This document shows positions 44,003-45,973 of a DNA stretch of 64,000 nucleotides, one piece after another. Each line of letters opens with the position of its first letter. Positions within the stretch are counted from its first letter, which is position 1. The position numbers and the translations under genes are program-made. Below the pieces are notes generated by a model. It saw only the letters and a list, made by a program, of their open reading frames with translations, did not search any database and was not told where the DNA came from. Source of the stretch: Mycobacterium saskatchewanense. Its GTDB lineage: Bacteria > Actinomycetota > Actinomycetes > Mycobacteriales > Mycobacteriaceae. The stretch is taken from the NCBI RefSeq assembly GCF_010729105.1, contig NZ_AP022573.1, positions 806,001 through 870,000 of the forward strand, in the 5' to 3' direction.

Positions 44003-44464
44003 TCAGGAGTGGGGCGGTTGCTGGCCGTTCTGGCCGCCAAGCAGCCCGTTGAGGATGCCGAGGGTGCCCTGCACGCCCGGCGGCGGTGTGGTGGACGGCG
44101 GAACGGCGTCGGGGGTCAGCTGCCAGGGCTGGCAGCCCGAAGTCTTGAAGGATTTGTCGGTCGCCTCGATCTGCACCACCTGCGACTTCTTCGTCATGGC
44201 GTTGTCGATGAGGTTTCCGTCGGGGTTGCCGAGCCGCTTCCAGTAGCAGGTGCCGGTGCCGGCCGGCCCCGCCGTGCTGTAGATGCCGGGCGCGATGTCG
44301 GTACCCACCGCGAAGGTGCCGTCGTGGTCGATGGTCGTCTTCGGGGCGTCCGGCGCCGGCGAGGGTTCCGGATCCGCACCGGCCACGCCCGCCGCCCCGG
44401 CCCAGACCGCGACGATCGCCCCCGCGACGGCCACTCTTGCCGCCAGCACTGCCCTCGACCACAT
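44003..44464 (-). CDS. Secreted protein, Rv1906c-like
   Basis: A 153-residue exported protein. The signal peptide WSRAVLAARVAVAGAIVAVW is cleaved near GAAGVAGADPEPS. The mature domain carries a beta-rich core, GTFAVGTDIAPGIYSTAGPA with a Cys pair (TCYWKRLGN, SGCQPWQL), and ends in a Pro/Gly/Gln-rich tail. The function is unknown; the family is mycobacterial. It sits 16 nt upstream of aao. Confidence 0.82.
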   Translation of the reverse strand: MWSRAVLAARVAVAGAIVAVWAGAAGVAGADPEPSPAPDAPKTTIDHDGTFAVGTDIAPGIYSTAGPAGTGTCYWKRLGNPDGNLIDNAMTKKSQVVQIEATDKSFKTSGCQPWQLTPDAVPPSTTPPPGVQGTLGILNGLLGGQNGQQPPHS

Positions 44465-44586
44465 AAAACATCAGCGTACCGGGGTGGAGCGGCTCGGTGC
44501 ACCCTCGCTTCGGGGAGCGGCAGCGACGGCGCATCGAGCGAGGGTCGCGCGGTTTCCGCTCACCGGCCGGCGGGTATTTCAGCGCA

Positions 44587-44898
44587 ATGTTGTGGCTGGC
44601 CGTGGTGCTCGCCGTCGTCGGCGCGGGATTGTTCGTCGTCGGGTGGGTCGCCTACGCGAACGGCGCCGGGGTCGCCCCGCAGCGTCGCACCAAAGACGAC
44701 CCCACCGGGATCAAACGGGCCGGCTCCCGGGTCGCATGGTCGGACGTCTTCCGTGGGATGCCGCGCATCGCGGGCGTCATGCTCGACAAGGAGGCCAGTC
44801 GCGACGACCGGCTCACCGCGCTCGGGTCGCTGTGCGTGCTCGCCGCGGTGGTGGCGGGCGTCGGCGCCGTAGTGGCCCTGCTGGCCGCGCTCGCCTGA
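44587..44898 (+). CDS. Small two-helix membrane protein
   Basis: A 103-residue protein with N- and C-terminal helices (WLAVVLAVVGAGLFVVGWVA and LCVLAAVVAGVGAVVALLAAL) flanking a basic cytosolic loop. I do not recognise a function. It occupies the place where katG and Rv1907c stand in M. tuberculosis, and it converges on furA with a 15-bp gap. Confidence 0.7.
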   Translation: MLWLAVVLAVVGAGLFVVGWVAYANGAGVAPQRRTKDDPTGIKRAGSRVAWSDVFRGMPRIAGVMLDKEASRDDRLTALGSLCVLAAVVAGVGAVVALLAALA

Positions 44899-44913
44899 GC
44901 GCGCGCGAGCAAC

Positions 44914-45654
44914 TCATGTCACATCAACATCGCCCCAGCGCGGAGTGGAGGGCTCGGTGTGGGGCGCTTTACCGGCCACGGTCGGGTCGGCGATGTCGTA
45001 GCGAGCCCACCCGGCGTTGGCTCCCAGCCCGCCGGTACCAATTCCCGCCGCCTTCAAAACGGTGATGGCTGCGAGTGGGACGGGGGAATGCCATCCCTCC
45101 GGCGCAGCCGGTGACGTCGGGAGCGAATGGCCGTTGCGGTGCGGCGCGGGGCGGTTGTCGGCCGGGCACGAGACTTCTTCATGAAGTTGCGTGAGGGCAT
45201 CGGGGGCGCCGTTGGCTCGCGACCCGTCGGAAGCCCCACAGCCCGGACAGCGGCCCCAAAAAGTGACCTCGGCCTCATCGACCTCGAAGCCGTTCGCCGC
45301 GCAAGCGGTCAGGCAGGGCGCCTCACCGGCGGTACAGTCGACATCCGCAATCGCCCCACACGTACGGCAGACCACGTGATGGTGGTTGTCACCCACTCGG
45401 GTCTCGTAACGCCCGGCCGAACCCGAGGGCTGGACCCGGCGAAGCAAACCCACACTGGTCAGCGCATTCAGCACGTCGTACACGGCTTGCCGGGACACGT
45501 CCGGCAGCCCGTCGCGCACCAGCCGGATGACCGTTTCGGTGTCGGAGTGCGGATGCGTGTGTACCGCGTGCAGCACTGCGATTCGCGGGCGGGTTACGCG
45601 GAGGTCGGCGGTGCGCAACCGTGCTGAGTAATCCGCGACCGAGGACGCCTGCAC
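44914..45654 (-). CDS. furA: Fur-family regulator FurA with abnormal C-terminal extension
   Basis: The first 145 residues or so are a normal FurA: LRTADLRVTRPRIAVLHAVH, the DNA-binding LPDVSRQAVYDVLNALTSVG, RVGDNHHHVVCRTCGAIADV with its metal His and CxxC, and WGRCPGCGASDGS. Conventional mycobacterial FurA ends here at about 150 residues. This one runs on for about 100 more residues of unmatched sequence, starting at GAPDALTQLHEE. katG, normally co-transcribed just downstream, is missing, so the tail is probably read-through after a deletion. The start is uncertain: GTG 45654 agrees with family N-termini; TTG 45684 has the best ribosome site, and ATG 45705 is the longest. Confidence 0.85.
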   Translation of the reverse strand: MQASSVADYSARLRTADLRVTRPRIAVLHAVHTHPHSDTETVIRLVRDGLPDVSRQAVYDVLNALTSVGLLRRVQPSGSAGRYETRVGDNHHHVVCRTCGAIADVDCTAGEAPCLTACAANGFEVDEAEVTFWGRCPGCGASDGSRANGAPDALTQLHEEVSCPADNRPAPHRNGHSLPTSPAAPEGWHSPVPLAAITVLKAAGIGTGGLGANAGWARYDIADPTVAGKAPHTEPSTPRWGDVDVT

Positions 45655-45702
45655 GAAAGCCCAATCTTTTCTGGAGCCGGTCAAAGCTACGTCCCCTTCC
45701 TT

Positions 45703-45730
45703 CATGTCATGGAATGCATGTCATGGAACG
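45703..45730. repeat. 14-bp tandem duplication upstream of furA
   Basis: CATGTCATGGAATG is followed directly by CATGTCATGGAACG, one base different. The repeat covers the longest possible furA start codon and creates several extra ATGs on the furA strand. An AT-rich stretch at about 45755-45780 just beyond it is the likely furA promoter or FurA box. The remainder to 45973 shows no gene. Confidence 0.85.
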
Positions 45731-45973
45731 CGCCGGCGCTGCCGCAGGCATGAGAATCATACGAAGAAAATAGTTTTATGGCGCAGCCAAGGCTAGGGCC
45801 GATCGACTCTGGCCGTTGCACTTTCACTGAAATAGCTTCGGGTTTTACGCACCCGTCAAATGACCGCCGGTCATAACACCCCTGACCGGGTCCACGGCCC
45901 TTACGCCGTGTCGAGCGGCAGGGGCCGCGGCGCGTCTGGCGGACTAGCGAAACACATTGCCAGCCAACAAGAC

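Follow-up and report, generated by a model that had tools for sequence, protein, structure and literature searches.

The FurA regulators encoded in mycobacterial furA-katG operons are the closest described relatives of the protein studied here. According to the consulted excerpts of PMC12713383, furA1 of M. smegmatis gives rise to a leaderless transcript with a GTG start, and a FurA site overlaps its promoter; these excerpts also report that the three FurA paralogues of this species are redundant in repressing katG1 and ahpC. For M. tuberculosis and BCG, an excerpt of PMC2358910 cites work in which the 5' end of furA coincides with the initiation codon. Here, we describe a furA gene of Mycobacterium saskatchewanense, located in a stretch of 64,000 nucleotides that we refer to as the window, which differs from these genes in its neighbours, its C-terminus and its start region.

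Setting of the tailed furA gene

The gene, whose product we term FurA-T, lies on the minus strand within a single uninterrupted frame of 263 codons (44914-45705). Upstream of it stands an SRPBCC gene (Polyketide_cyc2, PF10604; 45974..46468, minus strand), placed also by synteny. Behind it follow a small membrane-protein ORF on the plus strand (44497..44898), convergent with FurA-T, a Rv1906c-like gene (44003..44464, minus strand; NF053833, E 1.8e-29) and an aao-like gene. Family searches gave neither the membrane ORF nor the aao-like gene a match, and both labels are our own. ORFs similar to the small membrane ORF also adjoin Rv1906c in the genomes G091, G010 and G113. The initial annotation had described katG as absent beside furA, with a small membrane gene and then Rv1906c in its place, and this description holds: KatG had no match in the 64-kb window, and the downstream genes stand in the order given, with the membrane ORF on the opposite strand.

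The further suggestion that KatG might be lost from the organism was refuted by a katG search of the whole source genome (6,008,916 bases, one contig). This search revealed a single copy at G000:C1:896941-899076, which scores 1120 bits against a cut-off of 770 and contains no internal stop. The intact katG stands behind a furA of its own that encodes a FurA of normal length (152 residues; FurA2), and the tailed furA lies 45 kb away. Because katG is intact elsewhere, isoniazid activation and peroxide defence need not be altered, and the alarming reading of the locus gives way to that of a katG-less site holding a tailed FurA paralogue. One katG over the cut-off was found in each tailed genome examined, i.e., in 8 of 8 (G000 included) and in 6 of 6 more, amounting to 14 of 14. 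In six of the eight, katG is embedded in the order L,D-transpeptidase-like gene, furA, katG and DUF1906-like gene, the first and last of these names being our labels from sequence. The katG locus of G120 reads furA, katG, DUF1906-like gene; in G139, no furA was found beside katG.

Fur domain and C-terminal tail

The Fur domain of FurA-T (PF01475; 45262..45609, minus strand; E 2.2e-18) spans residues 33-148 in the numbering of the 263-residue frame and scores 67 bits against a cut-off of 23.1. NCBIfam returned Fur-family models only, all of them within residues 22-163. Alignment to B. subtilis PerR (PDB 2fe3) places H53, H108, H110 and D121 at His37, His91, His93 and Asp104, and the four zinc cysteines (C113, C116, C153 and C156 in the same numbering) all align as well. 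The position of PerR Asp85 is occupied by Glu101 in FurA-T, and FurA2 has Glu at the same place; in the available part of PMC2630230, whose own alignment covers M. tuberculosis FurA, all five regulatory residues are counted as conserved, Asp85 included. Moreover, the recognition region SRQAVYDVLNAL is identical in FurA-T and FurA2. The best reading of these features is that FurA-T would be a PerR-like regulator uncoupled from katG.

Past its CPGC motif, FurA-T continues for 107 residues (44917..45237, minus strand). The initial annotation had noted such a long unmatched tail, and indeed no Pfam family matched it up to an E-value of 10. Of 190 candidates from a search with residues 160-263 alone, 16 proteins reached an E-value of 1 or lower, among them proteins attributed to M. 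bohemicum, M. alsense and M. terramassiliense. All 16 are listed with PF01475, and in the protein database the tail matched only proteins with this domain. Among short proteins, the tail search yielded two pieces of 99 and 48 residues that resemble fragments of tailed FurA, and a motif search of the source genome gave two weak matches (E 0.002 and 0.26), both on the linker part. No description of a tailed FurA was found in the literature searched, most subscription journals being outside its reach.

In alignments, the tail divides into a variable proline-rich linker, a near-invariant core of 17 residues, AGIGTGGLGANAGWARY (44998..45048, minus strand), and a variable end. Across 10 loci, the core had a dN/dS of 0.047 (43 pairs) and the N-terminal extension one of 0.53 (44 pairs); for the Fur domain, the linker and the end, with 45 pairs each, the values were 0.19, 0.73 and 0.64, respectively. 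The pairs are not independent of each other; a comparison of three sequences gave the same picture. Synonymous changes do occur in the core (dS of 0.34, compared to 0.64 in the Fur domain), and the constraint on it thus acts mainly at the protein level. G058, G120 and G358 have a degenerate motif, which indicates that some lineages can dispense with it. The linker is predicted to be disordered, and an AlphaFold2 model is compatible with this, but no more: built on a shallow alignment of 17 sequences, it reached a mean pLDDT of 45 (~22-28 in the tail) and was too poor for a fold search, so that disorder stays at the level of a prediction.

What this tail represents can be read in several ways. 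The initial annotation had suggested scraps of katG, as RYDI near the end of the tail and EGGGN in another frame resemble short stretches of the KatG C- and N-terminus, respectively, although it called both weak. This candidate was rejected after comparing all six frames of 44900-45250 with the KatG of the genome. The best alignment between tail and KatG was equalled by 262 of 1000 shuffles. The best other frame, an antisense one, reached a score of 49 and surpassed all 300 of its own shuffles; however, this score is no evidence, because it is attained too by the best frame of 32 out of 400 pieces of 351 bp drawn at random from the window. RYDI turned out to be part of the motif conserved in other tailed FurA proteins, and EGGGN is a shifted reading of the codons around K-A-A-G-I, which in M. 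interjectum would give EGGRN. Remnants of KatG in the tail are therefore barely credible. We also consider it very improbable that FurA-T is decaying and that its tail is 3' sequence read through after the old stop codon was lost. The nearly free evolution of linker and end and the three lineages with a degenerate motif would suit such a decay, but the low dN/dS values of the core and the Fur domain and a frame that is open in all 15 tailed loci contradict it. Conservation of the core as DNA or RNA, be it an operator for the downstream genes or an RNA element, would fit its lower dS and the G runs in which this stretch is rich. This reading is nevertheless improbable, as changes in the core are mostly synonymous among the 10 loci, as the divergent copy of G139 uses another codon for 8 of the 11 core residues that it has in common with the window, and as Rfam gave no match at the gathering threshold.

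Start codon and upstream DNA

Loci of the katG type display the layout TTGACT, a TTCCAG(A/T)(A/T)AAG-like element, a -10 and then GTG or ATG. In the tailed loci, the old -35 contributes an in-frame TTG that lies 84 nt before the RVT codon (81 and 102 nt in two loci of changed length). All 15 tailed loci have a start codon where the old -35 was; in one of them it is GTG instead of TTG, by which the start is kept and the hexamer ruined. In the window, the former -35 hexamer and FurA operator, TTGACC..CTCCAGAAAAG (45666..45684, minus strand), would now provide the start codon and N-terminal codons, and a purine-rich, ribosome-binding-like sequence, AAGGAAGGGG (45693..45702, minus strand), precedes the TTG. 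We calculated the energy of the duplex between the 16S tail and the sequence before the TTG, which gave a median of -9.4 kcal/mol for the tailed loci versus -3.0 kcal/mol for a katG-type set (n=60; the other 36 of the 96 short-tailed rows were omitted because no -35 was located in them); only one of the 60 katG-type sites is as low as the tailed median. Judging from the start aligned in all 15 tailed loci and the AAGGAAGGGG in front of it, the TTG at 45684 is most likely the start of FurA-T, giving a protein of 256 residues (44914..45684, minus strand), and replaces the GTG at 45654 assumed in the initial annotation. Besides this downstream GTG, an in-frame ATG at 45705 upstream is the other alternative.

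Among the tailed loci, L144 (another name for L083) offers no alternative ATG, GTG or TTG start, and L083, L088 and L100 have no alternative start codon between -60 and -30; in L088 (L154) and L100 (L156), such codons are present at -63 and -66. The 12 other tailed loci do have start codons between -60 and -30, and in most tailed loci translation might thus still begin at a downstream GTG or ATG.

Three further counts separate the two kinds of loci, whose rows share ancestry, so that the contrasts are not independent trials. NANNNT at -10 spacing is found in none of the 15 tailed loci compared to 53 of 60 katG-type loci, and the frame is open from the TTG in 15/15 compared to 27/60; neither count is built in by the way the katG-type set was selected. 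Exact TTGACT occurs in 0/15 versus 59/60, a contrast that is partly built in because the -35/operator pattern served to select the katG-type set. The stricter TAnnnT test does not discriminate (0/15 and 0/60). The -35 hexamer and operator of an ancestral leaderless furA hence appear to have become coding sequence of FurA-T. With AGA changed to AGC or GGC in several tailed loci, the operator remnant may be mere coding sequence by now.

The operator of the katG-linked furA (L001, upstream of furA2) is in this group mostly TTCCAGATAAG or TTCCAAATAAG and not the common TTCCAGAAAAG. In the source genome, the TAA of the furA2 operator would terminate the frame used by FurA-T.

Within one mismatch, the furA-type operator pattern has two sites in the genome, one in front of furA2-katG (no mismatch) and one at 45666-45684 (one mismatch). 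A regulon defined by this operator was rejected, the 17 sites within three mismatches being no more than the 21 of a reversed control. Further upstream of FurA-T lies a conserved DNA block, CCTAGCCTTGGCTGCGCCA (45779..45797, minus strand), which may be part of a new promoter or operator. As judged by eye, a block near CCTAGCCTTGGCTGCGCCG can be recognised in 10 of the 15 distinct upstream regions among 17 rows, and even at another locus in G358. The block at 45779-45797 is the only site in the genome within one mismatch of its pattern; here too a regulon was rejected, as the pattern had 15 matches in all, compared to 36 in the reversed control. Directly upstream of the ribosome-binding-like sequence, 45703-45730 consist of two direct copies of a 14-nt unit, CATGTCATGGAATG, a repeat not seen in the other tailed loci whose upstream regions were aligned.

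Distribution, origin and proposed role of FurA-T

The initial annotation had named close relatives with the same tail as a finding that would refute its reading. Relatives including M. interjectum and Mycobacterium sp. E3198 do carry the same tail at the same place. A profile built from seven tails matched at least 20 of 396 genomes of the genus at E up to 0.01, a lower bound for which 14 first-look candidates were scored per genome. At E 1e-8 or better, at least 12 of the 396 were matched (G000, G017, G051, G097, G134, G139, G200, G248, G258, G271, G326 and G358); in G326, the tail alone was seen. The weak match in G058 belongs to a tailed FurA whose motif is degenerate, and the profile missed the long-tailed FurA of G120. 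Weak matches in G068, G147, G153, G184, G205, G255 and G351 had no Fur domain and were judged to be due to chance. Two tailed copies each are present in G134, G200 and G248, the second at another locus. At L147 of G134, the duplication reaches into the start of the Rv1906c-like gene that lies downstream, and a run of N comes next. G139 carries a divergent tail form, RIGSGGLGASVGWARH, at another locus. A second tail form, of which only the T-G-x-G-x-x-N-(E/G)-like end is recognisable, is found in G120 and G358 (L154 7564-7782 and L172); the two forms are linked by the short metagenome piece P0018, which holds both the core and such an end. A tree built from 147 columns of 112 Fur domains unites all 16 tailed rows, defined by a tail of more than 35 residues, in one clade (100/99) with no short-tailed row inside. 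Judged by this tree, FurA-T is a distinct FurA lineage, and by the genomes searched it is retained by a minority of mycobacteria, which have a katG elsewhere as well.

With regard to its origin, FurA-T might be a relict. An ancestral furA-katG-Rv1906c order, which we take to be that of M. tuberculosis, would have stood here, katG would have been deleted once the katG of the other locus sufficed, and the leftover furA would have diverged and gained its tail. Rv1906c and aao are indeed common to the FurA-T locus and to G105 and G026, where the order is furA-katG-Rv1906c-aao, presumably as in M. tuberculosis. In a 51-row tree, one clade of FurA-T with the FurA of G105 and G026 was not rejected (AU p 0.133); however, the best tree lacks this grouping, and a grouping of FurA-T with all 14 FurA rows of the other katG locus was equally not rejected (AU p 0.154). 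The genomic context argues against a relict. Three of 20 chosen Rv1906c loci have furA-katG beside Rv1906c, whereas 17 have no Fur domain, and in 11 of these 17 an SRPBCC gene lies near Rv1906c (two with a membrane ORF between the two genes and one with 1.3 kb between them). Moreover, FurA-T of G120 and G139 stands at other loci, and the Rv1906c loci of these genomes are without it. By context and not by the tree, we lean slightly towards a later arrival or an old duplication and regard the relict as doubtful. The SRPBCC gene was matched in 3 of 13 genomes searched, and none was found in the five genomes with Rv1906c a few kb from furA (G105, G026, G071, G094 and G013). At G029:C1:1995044-1995537, the SRPBCC gene near Rv1906c contains an in-frame TAA and is split.

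For the function of FurA-T, we favour, with a probability of about 0.5, that it would be a katG-less FurA/PerR-like paralogue, translated from a leadered mRNA, that represses furA2-katG and docks a partner through its tail core. Its mRNA would start further upstream, and the classical feedback at the old promoter would be broken by this leadered start. FurA-T would still bind the furA-type operator via the recognition region that it has in common with FurA2, and its targets would be the one clean copy at the furA2-katG promoter and the copy inside its own 5' end. Bound in this way, it would act as a second repressor on furA2-katG; such cross-repression is the simplest assumption because the operator sites, the recognition region and the metal residues match. 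The tail core would dock a partner, either another protein or the dimer itself, and thereby alter the activity or stability of FurA-T. More tentatively, we suggest that promoter capture freed the regulator from its own feedback and that, with a glycine-rich docking peptide gained on a disordered tether, it may have become a tethered peroxide/iron regulator.

This family is unusual in two respects: a Fur protein bears a peptide motif that hardly varies, and a former promoter apparently serves as coding sequence, a takeover that goes in step with an apparent change from a leaderless to a leadered gene. If true, this would be a case of an autoregulated gene uncoupled from its own operator, for which the katG-linked FurA of related loci offers a natural control.

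Among known systems, CatR and FurS of Streptomyces are Fur-family peroxide or redox sensors and are likened to FurA-T by description alone. Also by description, FurA3 of M. smegmatis (MSMEG_6253) is comparable as another FurA paralogue that is encoded apart from the two furA-katG operons, and the excerpts of PMC12713383 mention no tail for it. B. subtilis PerR resembles FurA-T in its regulatory histidines, the Asp104 position and the four cysteines, but comprises 145 residues in PDB 2fe3 and is without a tail like the 107 residues of FurA-T. The FurA proteins of furA-katG operons (M. tuberculosis Rv1909c and M. smegmatis FurA1) have the Fur domain, the metal-sensing and zinc residues and, as compared with FurA2 of the same genome, the recognition region in common with FurA-T, which also retains a remnant of their -35/operator sequence. 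Unlike these, FurA-T has no katG directly downstream, the gene being 45 kb off, and seems to lack the leaderless -35/operator/-10 promoter that abuts their start codon and has been replaced here; it carries a 107-residue tail with a conserved core and belongs to a separate clade.
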